Source: Acidimicrobiaceae bacterium
GTDB taxonomy: Bacteria; Actinomycetota; Acidimicrobiia; Acidimicrobiales; RAAP-2
Length of the DNA stretch: 64,000 nucleotides
Direction: 5' to 3'
Assembly: GCA_003158855.1 (NCBI GenBank)
Contig: PMLJ01000014.1
Coordinates: 108,158 to 172,157 of the forward strand
A program made the translations under genes and the position numbers. Of the stretch, positions 28,346 to 39,030 are shown one piece after another. How positions within the stretch are numbered: position 1 is the first letter of the stretch; every line of letters starts with the position of its first letter. The notes beneath the pieces are model-generated. The model was given only the letters and a program-made list of their open reading frames with translations. It ran no database searches and was not told the origin of the DNA.

Positions 28346-30283
28346 TTGAGCGAGTTCGAAGCCACAAATGTCGCAAGCAGTCATGACGACGAGGCTTCAT
28401 CAGCGGACGCGCGAGCCATCTCCGCGGAGTTTCTCAGTGCATTGATGTCGCTCATTCCGGACTCGGCTGTCGTCGTCGACTCAAAGGGACTCATCGTGTC
28501 GGTCAATGAACACGCTGAAGCCCTTTTTGGCTATCCGCCAGGTTCACTCGCCGGAAGAGCTGTTGAGACCTTGGTCCCGGAGCGAGTCCGGCCTCGTCAT
28601 CGAACTCATCGCTCGGCATTCGTCGCCGAGCCCATGGTTCGCCCGATGGGAGTTGGACTTGACCTCGCGGGCCGACGACGAGATGGCAGCGAATTCCCCC
28701 TCGACATCAGCTTGGCGCCGATTGTCAACGCCGGGGAGCGACTGGTCATCGCCGCGATTCGTGATGTCACCGAGCAACGCAGGGCCAGCGCAGCCCAGGC
28801 CGAACTCGCGGCCATCGTGCAATCGTCGTCGGACGCCATCATTTCGACGACGCTCTACGGAAGCGTCACCAACTGGAACCCCGCCGCCGAACGACTCTTA
28901 GGCTACCCAGCTAGCGAAATCCTGGGCGAGCACATCGCCACGCTGGTTCCCGATCATGCGTCTGCGGTCCTCGAGGAGCTGCTTGAAGCGGCATCGCAAA
29001 GCAGGTATCGAGAGGCCCTCACCACGCGGTGGCTCCACCAGGATGGGAGCGAAGTCGAGGTGTCCGTCTCAATCTCCCCTCTCAGGCACCAGGGGTCTGA
29101 GACGCTGGGTTTTTCCTTGATTGTTCGAAACGACTCGGAGCGTAAGAAGGCCGAGGATGATCTGCGAAGGATGCTCGCGGAGGAAGAGCGTCTGCAGCGT
29201 CAGCACGCAACCGCGGCAGAGATCAGGCTCTCCCTGCTCTCGGGCGCGTCGCTCGACGAGTCCCTGACCCTGATATGCCAACGAGCGAGTGAACTCGTCG
29301 GCGCGCCGGTGACGGTAATCTGCGCCATGAACGCCGGTAGAGTGCGCATCGTCGCGGGCGTTGGCGTGGCCACCGAGATGCTGGGCGCCAGCCTCTCGCC
29401 AGGACAGTCGTTCGCAGAAGAGGTCATGAATCGTAATGAGGCCATCGAGGTCTCGAGGCGAAGTGAGCACTCCTGGGTCGAAGTTCCCGAAAACCTACCG
29501 GACGGTCCGACCTACGGGATTCCCGTCATCGTCGCGGGCTCGGCGGCCGCAGCGCTGGTGTTCGTTCGTCCGAGCGACGCACGCGGCTTCGACACCACGG
29601 CACGAGCCTTCGCTGAAGCATTGGGCGCTCAGGCCGCCTTGGCGTTTGAGATCGAAAGGTCACGACGGGATCGCGAGCAGATGATGCTCATCGGCGACCG
29701 CGAGCGTATTGCCCGTGATCTGCACGACCACGTCATCCAACGACTCTTCGCCGCGGGCCTTGGCCTGCAAGCGTCGCTCGCCTGGGTCGAGGAGAGCAAG
29801 GCCTTGGAGCGGATTTCCGAGGCGGTCGATGTGCTCGACGAGACCATTCGTGAGATTCGCAACACGATCTTCAGCCTCTCGCATCAGGAGGAGATCGTCC
29901 CGCCATTGCGATCACAGATCTTGGACGTCGCCCAGCAGTCAAGCACGTCGCTCGGCTTTCCCCCCTCCCTCGACTTCACCGGACCGGTGGACGTCAGTCT
30001 TCGGAGCAATCTGAACTCTCACGTTCTCGCGTGCGTGCGCGAAGCCCTCTCCAATGTGGTTCGCCATGCCCAGGCCACCGAGGTACTAGTCCAACTGAAG
30101 ATCACCGAAGGAACGCTCCTGATCGCGGTCACTGACAATGGCGTAGGAATGGGAACGGCCACTCGTTCGAGTGGCCTCTCGAACCTGAGGGAACGCGCTC
30201 GACTACTCAACGGCACATTCGAGATTGCCGATGCGCCGGGCGGTGGCACCCGACTCGAGTGGACTGTTCCCCTGGGAGATTGA
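28346..30283 (+). CDS. PAS-PAS-GAF sensor histidine kinase (NarL/DevS class)
   Basis: A 645-residue cytoplasmic sensor with no membrane helix. PAS 1 spans about residues 30-140 (DSKGLIVSVNEHAEALFGYP), PAS 2 about 150-270 (GSVTNWNPAAERLLGYP), then a GAF domain (about 295-435). The HisKA_3 dimerisation helix carries the phosphoacceptor in RIARDLHDHVIQRLFAAGLGLQ at about residue 459. The ATPase domain has LSNVVRHAQATEV (N box) and VTDNGVGMG (G1). This layout resembles redox or oxygen sensors of the DevS/DosT group, but no haem ligand can be assigned. No response regulator lies nearby, so it is an orphan. The start is TTG with CGAAAGG upstream. Confidence 0.92.
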   Translation: MSEFEATNVASSHDDEASSADARAISAEFLSALMSLIPDSAVVVDSKGLIVSVNEHAEALFGYPPGSLAGRAVETLVPERVRPRHRTHRSAFVAEPMVRPMGVGLDLAGRRRDGSEFPLDISLAPIVNAGERLVIAAIRDVTEQRRASAAQAELAAIVQSSSDAIISTTLYGSVTNWNPAAERLLGYPASEILGEHIATLVPDHASAVLEELLEAASQSRYREALTTRWLHQDGSEVEVSVSISPLRHQGSETLGFSLIVRNDSERKKAEDDLRRMLAEEERLQRQHATAAEIRLSLLSGASLDESLTLICQRASELVGAPVTVICAMNAGRVRIVAGVGVATEMLGASLSPGQSFAEEVMNRNEAIEVSRRSEHSWVEVPENLPDGPTYGIPVIVAGSAAAALVFVRPSDARGFDTTARAFAEALGAQAALAFEIERSRRDREQMMLIGDRERIARDLHDHVIQRLFAAGLGLQASLAWVEESKALERISEAVDVLDETIREIRNTIFSLSHQEEIVPPLRSQILDVAQQSSTSLGFPPSLDFTGPVDVSLRSNLNSHVLACVREALSNVVRHAQATEVLVQLKITEGTLLIAVTDNGVGMGTATRSSGLSNLRERARLLNGTFEIADAPGGGTRLEWTVPLGD

Positions 30284-31763: not shown

Positions 31764-31976
31764 GCACCCATGATGCACGATTCGCTGAAGATCCGGACAG
31801 GGCCCAAAGTCCCTGTAAGCGTCGGCAAATGAGGCGGAACGCGATGGTGCGAAGGCCTCCCAGAGGCCTCCCCAGGGTTCAATTTGCTGGTGCAAAGGCC
31901 ATGGCCGTCATGTTCGCGCGTCCCGGAGCCGACTGAACGCCTGTTGAAGAATCTTCGCGATGCAGGCGCCGGACGA

Positions 31977-35729: not shown

Positions 35730-35993
35730 CGCGAAAGCGCCCGTCCCAAAAGTCAATGGGAATCGGGCGCTTTGCTTAACTTGTACTCCCTGAACGGACT
35801 GAAGGGAAATGGCACCCAGAGAAGCGTACGCGCTTCGTGTCCGTTGCAAGGCTCAACTTCGAGCACTTTGCCTTCAATTCAATCTGGGCCTACCGGAATC
35901 TCTCCCGTACAATCTCTTGCCATCCATTCTCAGGATGAACCACAATCAGGATCCATTCGAAACTGACCTCCTAAAGGATCTCTCCAGATCCTT
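35730..35993 (-). ncRNA. Predicted structured RNA, copy 1 of a diverged pair
   Basis: The stretch aligns with 36758-37022 over its whole length. Read on the minus strand it begins about seven bases after TACAAT (36000-36005) and ends in a strong hairpin at 35733-35772 (10-bp outer stem) with TTT after it. Internal helices shared with copy 2: CGGGA-GAGA-TTCCG with a GNRA-type loop (35893-35906), GAAGCG-CGTA-CGCTTC (35820-35835), CTC-GAAGTT-GAG flanked by GCAA/TTGC, and a long-range pairing of GGCCCAG with CTGGGTGCC (35883-35889 with 35810-35818). G-U pairs fit only if the minus strand is transcribed. AGGAGG and a short ORF lie near the 5' end. I match it to no known RNA family. Confidence 0.65.
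35929..35955 (-). other. Eight-codon mini-ORF inside RNA copy 1
   Basis: ATG at 35953-35955 reads MDPDCGSS then TGA. AGGAGG (35966-35971) lies ten bases upstream. Copy 2 has the same arrangement with a different peptide, so the ribosome site and start, not the peptide, appear to be kept. It could be translated as a leader or act as a ribosome-binding decoy. Confidence 0.35.
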
Positions 35994-35999
35994 CATAAT

Positions 36000-36005
36000 T
36001 ATTGT
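36000..36005 (-). promoter_or_regulatory. -10 box for RNA copy 1
   Basis: TACAAT on the minus strand at the exact boundary where similarity between the two RNA copies stops. The -35 region is not recognisable. Confidence 0.45.
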
Positions 36006-36385
36006 ACCGTGATCGGCGTCCTCTTGGCTAGGGACCAAAGACCCTATACGTCGTGCTCAATCTGACAGATGACGTGAACCATCGCTCGTGCAAACTCCAC
36101 CCAAGTCCGGCGATTCGGAAGGTCCGATGTCAACTCACATTGGCGATTCTTGCCACGACCATGTCGAGGACTCGATGCCGCGTGTCATCGACCAAGTGTG
36201 CAGAAGCTGCATGGCCACAAGGCTGCGATGACCTCGACGTAGAGGCGTTGATTCATTCGCACGCACGCCTGCGACGCCGGCGATCGCCAAACCCCGACTG
36301 CTGGCAACTCTTGGGCCTTACGTCTCTGGCACAGGTGTCCTCTGCGGTATAGACATTGGGTATTCAGAAAACGGCGGGAGGCGCC
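36006..36385. other. Intergenic, 380 bases
   Basis: Lies between RNA copy 1 and the DUF1918 gene. No coding frame with protein-like character; the 99-codon frame at 36053-36352 lacks a ribosome site and any family resemblance. Confidence 0.35.
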
Positions 36386-36577
36386 ATGAACGCAAAAGTT
36401 GGAGACCGAATCGTGGTTCGAGGGCATCGGGCGGGTCAGTCGGACCGTCACTGCATGATTCTCGAGGTGCGACATGAGAGCGGGGAACCGCCCTATCTCG
36501 TCCGATGGGACGACAGCGACCATGAGGAGCTCTACTTCCCTGGATCCGACGCCGCCGTCATCAACAGCGGCAATTAG
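36386..36577 (+). CDS. DUF1918 domain protein
   Basis: A 63-residue single-domain protein: AKVGDRIVVRGHRAGQSDRH, CMILEVRHESGEPPYLVRWD, then HEELYFPGSDAAVI. This is the full DUF1918 pattern, an SH3-like small beta barrel common in actinobacteria, often next to stress genes; role unknown. GGGAGG precedes ATG 36386. It sits between the two RNA repeats on the opposite strand. Confidence 0.88.
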   Translation: MNAKVGDRIVVRGHRAGQSDRHCMILEVRHESGEPPYLVRWDDSDHEELYFPGSDAAVINSGN

Positions 36578-36757
36578 TAATTAAAACCAGTTCGTCAGGA
36601 ACCGGTACAACCAGAGTTGGACGCCCACTAATGGGACGGCCTTTGTGCGCAACCTTGTCGCTGGTCTCGTGCGAAGCAACGTGACTGTCGATTCCTGCTG
36701 CTTGGCAGAAGGGTCGCCTCAGGACGAGACAACATGGATTCGAAAACTGGGCTATTC

Positions 36758-37022
36758 GCGAAAGCGCCCGTCCCAAGTTTCAATGGGAATCGGGCGCTCT
36801 ACTTAACTTGTATTCCTAGAACAGATCACTCGGGAAATGGCACCCAGCGAAGCATACGTGCTTCTCGTCCGTTGCAACTCTCAACTTCGAGCCTCTTGCC
36901 TTCGATGTGCCTGGGCCTGCCGGAATCTCTCCCGTACAACCCCTCGTGTTCCATTCTCAGGGCTAACTACCTTCAGGTTTCATTCGGCCGGGCGCCTCCT
37001 TAAGAGTCTTCCCAAATCCTTC
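36758..37022 (-). ncRNA. Predicted structured RNA, copy 2 of a diverged pair
   Basis: Paralogue of the 35730-35993 element, by eye about three quarters identical. A good minus-strand promoter precedes it: TTGCAA (37052-37057), 17 bases, TACGAT (37029-37034). It ends in the hairpin at 36761-36800. The stem GAAGCG/CGCTTC of copy 1 is GAAGCA/TGCTTC here (36849-36864), a compensatory G-C to A-U change around the same CGTA loop. The GNRA hairpin (36921-36934), the CTC-GAAGTT-GAG hairpin and the GGCCCAG/CTGGGTGCC pairing (36911-36917, 36839-36847) are kept. One terminal-stem pair is A-U in copy 1 and G-U here, again only on the minus strand. No known family recognised. Confidence 0.66.
36963..36983 (-). 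other. Six-codon mini-ORF inside RNA copy 2
   Basis: ATG at 36981-36983 reads MKPEGS then TAG, eleven bases after AGGAGG (36995-37000). It occupies the same place as the mini-ORF of copy 1, with an unrelated peptide. Confidence 0.35.
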
Positions 37023-37028
37023 AATTGA

Positions 37029-37057
37029 ATCGTACCGAGGGTGACTTGTGATTGCAA
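37029..37057 (-). promoter_or_regulatory. Promoter of RNA copy 2
   Basis: TTGCAA and TACGAT spaced by exactly 17 bases on the minus strand, directly before the predicted RNA. This is one of the best complete promoters in the window. Confidence 0.55.
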
Positions 37058-37235: not shown

Positions 37236-38050
37236 TCATGCTGCTCTTGATGCTTGGTGTAGTGCCTCAAACTCGACCGGCGTAAGTCTCCCGAGTCGAC
37301 GCTTGCGACGCTGACGATGATATTTCTTTTCGATCCAGGTGACGATGGCGAGTCGCAGATCCTCCTTCGTTTCCCAGCGTCGAGTGTTGAGAACGTTCTT
37401 CTGCAAGAGTGGGTGGAACGATTCGATGGCCGCGTTGTCGGCCGCAGAGGCGACTCGTCCCATCGAGCCGATGAGTCCGTTGTTCTTCAGCACCATCACG
37501 AATTTCCTGGATCGAAATTGAGATCCACGGTCGGAATGAACCTTTGTGCCGGCGGGGTCGCGTAGCGCAATCGCGTTCGAAAGGGCCGACTCCGCGAGGT
37601 CCGCGGTCATCCGATCTCCGATCGAGTAGCCGACGATGCGCGTCGAGCACGCGTCCATGAGAGAGCAGAGGTAGAGCTTGCCCTCGTTGGTGTTGTGCTC
37701 GCGCTGCACGAGGTCATCGTGGACCGGTGGACCGGGCTTCTTGCCCGAGCGACTCTTCTTCACGAAGCTCGACCAGATCGCCTGCTGCGAACACAGACGC
37801 CACACTCGGCGCTCGCTGACACTGAGACCCGCGGCCTCGAGCTCGTCACTGATGAACCGGTAGCCAAAGGTGGGGTCGTCGCGGTGCGCGTCGTAGGCGG
37901 CGTTGGTGAGATAGGCGTTCTCGTAGTCGCGAGACGACCACGGTTCGCGCAGCCACCTGTAGTAGCCCTGACATGAGAACTTCAGCACCCGGCAGGTCAC
38001 GTGACGGGGATGCCGTCACGGCTCAGTTCGCGGACCAGCGGGTATTTCAT
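37236..38050 (-). pseudogene. IS3 OrfB (DDE transposase), frameshifted and missing first catalytic Asp
   Basis: ATG 38048-38050 opens MKYPLVRELSRDGIPVT and then meets TGA; one missing base shifts the frame, and the rest continues as TCRVLKFSCQGYYRWLREPW to the end at 37236. Inside the catalytic core VHDDLVQRE is followed directly by HNTNEGKLYLCSLMDA. Relatives carry about 16 residues here, including the WLTDIT motif with the first catalytic aspartate. So an in-frame deletion, likely between short GAG repeats, removed it. The second Asp (KVHSDRGSQF) and the Glu (AAIESFHPLLQKN) remain. The protein cannot transpose. Confidence 0.82.
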
Positions 38051-38331
38051 TTTGGGGGTAACTGCTTGGCGAAGTAGGCGGCCGCGCGACACAGAATCTC
38101 GTTCTCTTGCTCCAGGGTCTTGATGCGCCGGCGTTGTTCGCGCTCGCGATCCGACTCAGCCAACTTCTTCCCGGGCCGAACACCGTCTTCGATGTCGGCC
38201 CGCTTCAACCAGTTGGCCAAGGTTGCGTCGGAGATGCCGAAGTCCTTCGCGATCTGGCTGAGCGGCGCTTCGTGTTTTCGAGCGACCGCCACTACGTCGT
38301 CGCGGAACTCTTGTGGATAGGCTCTCGCCAT
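38047..38331 (-). CDS. IS3 OrfA (helix-turn-helix)
   Basis: A 94-residue transposase subunit. YPQEFRDDVVAVARKHEAPL then IAKDFGISDATLANWLKRAD is the helix-turn-helix, and ESDREREQRRRIKTLEQENE is the leucine-zipper part. In active elements a -1 frameshift at the AAAA before the stop fuses it to OrfB; here ATGA links them. GGAAGG precedes ATG 38329-38331. It appears intact, unlike OrfB, and could still bind the ends. Confidence 0.86.
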   Translation of the reverse strand: MARAYPQEFRDDVVAVARKHEAPLSQIAKDFGISDATLANWLKRADIEDGVRPGKKLAESDREREQRRRIKTLEQENEILCRAAAYFAKQLPPK

Positions 38332-38370
38332 CGTTGCCATCCTTCCGTGGGGATCAGCCCACAAGTTAGA

Positions 38371-38395
38371 TGTCAACTAAAACGTCAGCAGTCCC
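38371..38395 (-). repeat. IS3 right inverted repeat
   Basis: Read on the minus strand it opens GGGACTGCTGACG and ends GTTGACA, matching the left end. Confidence 0.8.
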
Positions 38396-38680: not shown

Positions 38681-39030
38681 GTGGACCCACCTCTCTGGAT
38701 AGTTCGAAACGTTACAAATCATTGAGTTTGTAGTCACGGGCCAAAAGACCCTTAGTTGTACCACCGAGGTCGGATGCTGCCAACCAGTCGAAGATCCAGA
38801 ACAATTCAATGGCTTCGCGCAAATTGGTCGATACGCCGTGCGATTTGCCCAAACTGTCGCGCCGGCGCTTTTGACAACGCTCAATTCTTGAGTTCCCTTT
38901 GAGAAGACACGCTACCCCCGGACTGGTGTGCCCAGTTTCAAAGCACCTGCAACTTCGTTCCCTGGCGTGACGGCATCGAGGACTCTCACTCATCCACCGG
39001 TCCGCCGACGGCGTCGGTGATAATTCGGAT
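38681..39030. other. Intergenic divergent region, 350 bases
   Basis: Between the microprotein and the cation exchanger. GATAAT at 39019-39024 is the likely -10 of the exchanger. Nothing else stands out. Confidence 0.35.

Follow-up and report, generated by a model that had tools for sequence, protein, structure and literature searches.

A pair of related elements on the minus strand of an Acidimicrobiaceae genome probably represents a new family of stand-alone, trans-acting structured RNAs of Acidimicrobiales-type actinobacteria that belongs to a DosR-type oxygen response, with one switched and one constitutive copy. Both copies lie in a 64,000-nt window, the whole stretch of DNA that was analysed (G000:C29:108158-172157), of a 2.7-Mb genome in 50 contigs. 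The structure of the RNA is read from comparison of homologues, and from its promoters and neighbours we infer that it is transcribed, controlled by a regulator and active in trans. The features are as follows.

35730..36000, minus: RNA element, copy A; its 5′ end has the higher coordinate
35780..35941, minus: structured core of copy A, comprising the rod and both three-way junctions
35730..35776, minus: terminator hairpin of copy A, its stem letters conserved across families
35930..35956, minus: possible micro-ORF of copy A (MDPDCGSS) behind GGAGG, on weak evidence
36001..36006, minus: −10 box of copy A, TACAAT
36031..36044, minus: DosR/DevR-like palindrome of copy A, GGGTCTTTGGTCCC, matching GGGACTTTNGNCCC at 11/12, over the −35 region
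36757..37028, minus: copy B of the RNA element
36807..36968, minus: structured core of copy B
36757..36803, minus: terminator hairpin of copy B
36963..36983, minus: possible micro-ORF of copy B (MKPEGS) behind GGAGG, on weak evidence
37029..37034, minus: −10 box of copy B, TACGAT
37052..37057, minus: −35 box of copy B, TTGCAA, 17 nt from the −10 box
28346..30283, plus: PAS-PAS-GAF histidine kinase (context, outside the RNA)

Copies A and B lie roughly 1,027 nt apart, are 78% identical overall by blastn, with block identities of 80–87%, and are the two copies that blastn detects in their own genome. The sequence-only reading had described two elements that match along their length and nowhere beyond, and this holds: the likeness is lost outside a span that runs, in both copies, from the −10 box (TACAAT or TACGAT) to a strong closing hairpin ending in GGGACGGGCGCTTTCGCG. 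Two further details of that reading recur in the comparative fold. The stem seen to change from GAAGCG/CGCTTC to GAAGCA/TGCTTC around a kept CGTA loop is present as helix 8, which varies further among homologues, and the long-range pairing of GGCCCAG with CTGGGTGCC around two hairpins is consensus helix 5. In single-sequence folding against dinucleotide shuffles, the signal is clear for copy A (z −4.4, 0/200 shuffles as good) and weak for copy B (z −1.9, 7/200), so the comparative evidence carries the case. A DUF1918 gene lies between the copies (36356-36577, plus strand), and DUF1918-type genes also occur near the members at L079 (by Pfam) and L080 (by sequence). Two transposase ORFs (37236-38376, minus strand; integrase core and HTH_Tnp_1), which we take to be IS3-like, lie directly upstream of copy B.

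The element occurs in four families of one order. With copy B as the query, blastn found it in 12 of 100 genomes including its own, one of them (G068) from another family. Covariance models, a search proposed in the sequence-only reading, returned full-length relatives in the four families: the core model R1 placed the element in 7 of 397 genomes of the order, and the full-length model R2 in 13 of 99 genus genomes, a patchy presence. In family f45, R2 matched 7 of 17 genomes, one through no more than a terminator piece. Searches of about 400 genomes scored 4–7 candidate places per genome, making their counts lower bounds. A more sensitive search of 40 genomes of the order gave full-length members just in the own genome and G068, plus two terminator pieces. 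A phylum-wide search of low sensitivity, in which 10 of 396 genomes matched with the own genome included, yielded no convincing addition; its matches in the nine other genomes scored 18–21 bits, six of them being terminator pieces, and were taken as chance. In a pattern scan of named genomes, 10 of 11 stretches held members, which belong to Acidimicrobiaceae MAGs with palsa or bog in their names and to MAGs titled 'Actinomycetes bacterium'. A pattern match in Pontibacter and four in viruses are not members.

The resulting working set comprises 27 full-length members from 21 genomes: 18 in 13 genus genomes, and 9 in families f9, f21 and f45, spread over 8 genomes. Second copies, such as L014, are counted as separate members, and the terminator piece L129 is left out of all 27-member counts. 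The genome that carries L020 also holds a second, very divergent member, L130 (G321:C78), in which the terminator stem has changed and still pairs.

By comparison of these members, the unit spans about 250–290 nt and consists, from 5′ to 3′, of a promoter, a 5′ hairpin, a GGAGG stretch, a small hairpin and a long rod capped by two stacked three-way junctions, followed by an A-rich linker and the terminator hairpin. The core fold is well supported, with strong covariation in the presence of controls. In the first 17 sequences, RNAalifold predicted 32 core pairs, 15 of which are changed on both sides. A larger core alignment of 24 rows (22 distinct) gave a 46-pair structure with two-sided changes in 29 pairs, figures that lean towards this structure because the alignment was fitted to model R1 and the structure was predicted from the same alignment in which the pairs were counted; 30 of the 46 pairs are common to R1, and 16, including 7 of the 29 with two-sided changes, are absent from it. 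In this structure 89.1% of cells are paired, compared with 38.9–49.2% when the 3′ partners are slid, and 0 of 500 shuffles matched the real core alignment on any of five measures.

Within the core, the outer rod (helices 1 and 2) carries 16 of the 29 pairs with two-sided changes. Helix 5 is GGCCTCAG/CTGAGTGCC in f45 members, in place of GGCCCAG/CTGGGTGCC. The GNRA-type hairpin formed by helices 3 and 4 shows no two-sided change and is absent from L020. The core helices contain 94 G·U cells against 33 A·C cells, an excess that favours an RNA read from the minus strand; the earlier claim that wobble pairs fit this strand was thus borne out in direction, and its 'only' was too strong. Every member has its own terminator, and the letters of the terminator stem (CCCG.TTCCC...GGGACGGGCG) are kept across families beyond what termination alone should need.

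No family in Rfam 15 matches the element. Across the whole window, Rfam 15 (4227 families, at gathering score) finds just a tRNA elsewhere; over the element region, extended to E 10, it gives three low-scoring matches far below their thresholds, and at six distant loci, to E 1, no match. A glycine riboswitch, suggested by the letters, receives no support from Rfam to E 10. A literature search, with subscription journals mostly outside its coverage, found no paper on such an RNA. The view that no RNA class fits is thus upheld by the comparison with Rfam 15 and with loci selected for Ms1 synteny (see below), within the limits of these tests.

The promoters of the two copies differ, and the difference follows a split between paralogues. 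The sequence-only reading had recorded neither the −35 box of copy B nor the palindrome that takes its place in copy A. A FastTree analysis of the 27 members separates the genus group that contains copy B (11 members) from the rest with support 0.98, and the genus group that contains copy A (7 members) forms a clade with a weak support of 0.50. All 7 members of the copy-A group have a palindrome resembling GGGACTTTNGNCCC at 9 to 12 of 12 positions, centred 36–37 nt upstream of the element, and none has TTGnnn at 17 nt. Conversely, 10 of 11 members of the copy-B group have TTGnnn 17 nt from TAnnnT, and a palindrome of at least 9/12 at the fixed place occurs in a single one (L008, 9/12). Over the whole set, a palindrome of at least 10/12 lies within 75 nt upstream of 10 of 27 members, compared with 0 of 27 downstream stretches. 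Of the nine members outside the genus, four have such a site within 75 nt (one reversed) and five lack it; L020 has it at 11/12 in the same place as the copy-A group, which suggests that the palindrome is ancestral. Upstream of position 1761 at L116, the palindrome ATGACTTTCGTCAC sits within TAGTGA...TCACTA, with both arms changed and the dyad kept.

Several observations connect this palindrome to a regulator of the DosR/DevR type. First, the M. tuberculosis DosR consensus is TTSGGGACTWWAGTCCCSAA, as given in the parts of PMC2275270 consulted. Against all 20 of its bases, the copy A site matches 14, a score equalled by 2% of mononucleotide shuffles, and the L016 site matches 15, equalled by 0 of 300; the sites of other members do no better than chance on this measure. 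The 14-base motif core, picked after the sites had been seen, occurs at 22 sites in the own genome, compared with 3 for the reversed control. In a set of 31 chosen genomes, the 11 genus genomes with the RNA together have 171 motif sites and 57 sites of the reversed control; the corresponding sums are 126 and 32 for 11 genus genomes in which no RNA was detected, 183 and 40 for six RNA-bearing genomes from other families, and 16 and 26 for three from sister genera. For most of the 22 sites in the own genome, a link to respiration is not evident; one precedes a cytochrome b gene, and a site precedes the heme A synthase gene both in G000 (one mismatch) and in G168 (exact). Further DosR-like sites lie at 31800-31813 and 38738-38751, within 7 kb of the copy A site, the former being exact and just upstream of a Gmad2-domain gene.

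Second, the genomes encode a fitting regulator. At L092, a DevR-like regulator gene lies 3.4 kb from the RNA; among solved structures its product best matches DevR (E 2e-66), followed by VraR (E 1.5e-40). Relatives of this protein were found in 13 of 13 genomes tried, including all three without the RNA, and since the motif is just as enriched in genus genomes without detected RNA, the putative regulon would be wider than the RNA. The own genome's DevR-type regulator, 54% identical to the L092 protein, is encoded on another contig (G000:C12). Among solved structures, DevS is the closest to the catalytic end of the histidine kinase at 28346..30283, 5.4 kb from copy A, and FixL to its first PAS domain; its neighbourhood showed no partner regulator, the DevR-like gene being on C12.

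Third, genes that may relate to such a response lie near the RNA at some loci outside the genus. At L091 it diverges, at a distance of 222 nt, from sulfhydrogenase beta/gamma-subunit-like genes (below NCBI's cut-offs). At L090 it diverges, at 61 nt, from a phosphoribosyltransferase-domain gene that is presumably a relative of Rv0571c, and at L094 a nicotinate phosphoribosyltransferase gene lies 0.8 kb away; relatives of both genes belong to the mycobacterial DosR regulon. Rv0571c itself appears in the list of that regulon in the consulted portion of PMC2275270. A putative hydrogenase subunit at L132:1743-2843 was recognised by neither Pfam nor NCBIfam and was not used.

A partial precedent for this layout is DrrS/MTS1338 of M. 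tuberculosis, a DosR-regulated RNA for which the sections consulted place the regulator's site 34 bp upstream of the start, over the −35 region (PMC5360333). Like the present element, it is a stand-alone RNA, and a regulator site over the −35 region of a sigma-A-type promoter is also the layout of copy A, which has a DosR-type site there (11/12) that copy B lacks. Compared by description, the two RNAs are otherwise dissimilar: DrrS is a product of about 108 nt cut from a longer transcript with no obvious terminator in those same sections (PMC5360333), and the present RNA is about 271 nt long, with a terminator and a branched fold.

Judging from motif, position and neighbours, the family may originally have been controlled by a DosR/DevR-type response regulator that bound the palindrome over the −35 region, such that RNA levels would rise as oxygen falls. 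After duplication in the genus, copy A would have kept the palindrome that its sequence displays, and copy B has a −35 box instead, a division of promoters that would leave copy A switched and copy B constitutive. Because the conserved positions are located in junctions and hairpins, as in protein-binding RNAs, and do not form a single open seed, the RNA might serve as a folded scaffold for a protein or a large complex, with RNA polymerase and the ribosome as first candidates; we give this role about an even chance. Antisense pairing seems less likely. In the rough gene lists of the loci, no same-strand downstream gene recurs between families, which speaks against control in cis.

An RNA that binds RNA polymerase, whether a strongly diverged Ms1 or an RNA that parallels Ms1, 6S or CoRP independently, would be an alternative to a class of its own. 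We consider this identity unlikely; a 6S/Ms1-like role is possible. The element shares with Ms1 of mycobacteria and Streptomyces a similar length, an actinobacterial single-gene unit, a sigma-A-type promoter, an intrinsic terminator and a long rod that has hairpins close to its ends. However, seven HAD-IB loci from three other actinobacteria, beside which Ms1 would be expected, scored at most 5.6 bits with all filters off, in an indirect test that compared such loci, not authentic Ms1 letters, and in which three of the seven (L095-L097) were taken for the Ms1 setting on the basis of their gene order. Four of the seven also gave no match at E 1 with a later model. In the own genome, HAD-IB-type genes are on contigs C19, C9 and C25 and not on C29, and the HAD gene 331 nt from the member at L077 is of the IA/CTE7 type, TIGR01490 being absent from its 21 NCBIfam hits.

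The fold and distribution also count against an RNA-polymerase-binding class. Between helices 1 and 2 the internal loops of the consensus are short, and above them it branches, with no large central bubble; the element is also present only patchily. The consulted parts of two papers describe Ms1 as about 300 nt long, with a long hairpin and two short ones (PMC4191392), a fold different from the present one and a HAD-IB neighbour gene (PMC4191392, PMC9130861); the present element has no model match at the loci taken as syntenic, no HAD-IB neighbour was found for copies A and B or at L077, and its apex is branched. It resembles 6S RNA in its long imperfect rod and differs in the branched apex, the missing central bubble and the absence of an Rfam match. 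CoRP of Corynebacterium is likewise an actinobacterial structured RNA outside 6S and Ms1, and is set apart by its description, in the text consulted, as about 500 nt long and located among tRNA genes (PMC11077062). The authors of that RIP-seq study do foresee more types of RNA-polymerase-binding RNA in actinobacteria (PMC11077062, in part).

It is improbable that the element is a coding or dual-function transcript whose GGAGG stretch and micro-ORF are active, either through a peptide or by holding the ribosome. GGAGG occurs at the corresponding place in 27 of 27 members, and in all 18 genus members it is followed by ATG or GTG at 10–11 nt and a 6–8-codon frame with a stop. Outside the genus, however, none of the nine members has a frame of that size with a start at that distance, except L128 with TTG, and in three the start is directly followed by a stop (one read by eye); with the frame not kept there, a micro-ORF as the main function was rejected. 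Even within the genus, the changes at the stop are of a kind that would keep a stop by chance in three of four cases. Nor do single-sequence ensembles support an exposed GGAGG: in 21 of 27 members they predict it to be less open than the RNA is on average.

A cis-acting leader is very improbable, and so is a mobile-element component, for example a transposon-borne RNA or a TnpB guide RNA. The terminator after the fold would suit a leader, against which the lack of a recurring downstream gene across loci counts. An integrase-type transposase does lie upstream of copy B, transposase genes lie near L079, and a TnpB-like gene (L084:10098-11438; Cas12f1-like TNB, OrfB_IS605) is 1.4 kb from the counterpart of copy B in G029. 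But the transposases differ in kind and are near 3 of the 18 loci examined, the TnpB-like gene was seen at L084 and at none of the other loci, copy B gave no blastn match to phages and plasmids, and the viral pattern matches, not being members, count against mobility as well. A protein remnant, the refuting case raised by the sequence-only reading, is unlikely because core lengths, between 144 and 174 nt, vary by amounts that are not multiples of three; the antisense ORFs that span the element resemble one another across loci because the RNA is conserved there.

It is uncommon to find a structured RNA this large that covaries clearly and lacks an Rfam family. This one, which we regard as a probable stand-alone family, comes from a defined group of bacteria in bog and palsa samples and brings a testable regulatory lead together with a differently driven pair of paralogues. 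More tentatively, and with less confidence than in the family itself, the RNA could be a class of its own and an old member of DosR-type oxygen-limitation regulons outside mycobacteria, acting in an RNA–protein machine built on RNA polymerase or ribosomes, for which the promoter-split paralogues would supply standing and inducible pools. The RNA may belong to the additional actinobacterial types foreseen in the RIP-seq study, or be something new, and the paralogue pair lets the role of the RNA under falling oxygen be asked directly.
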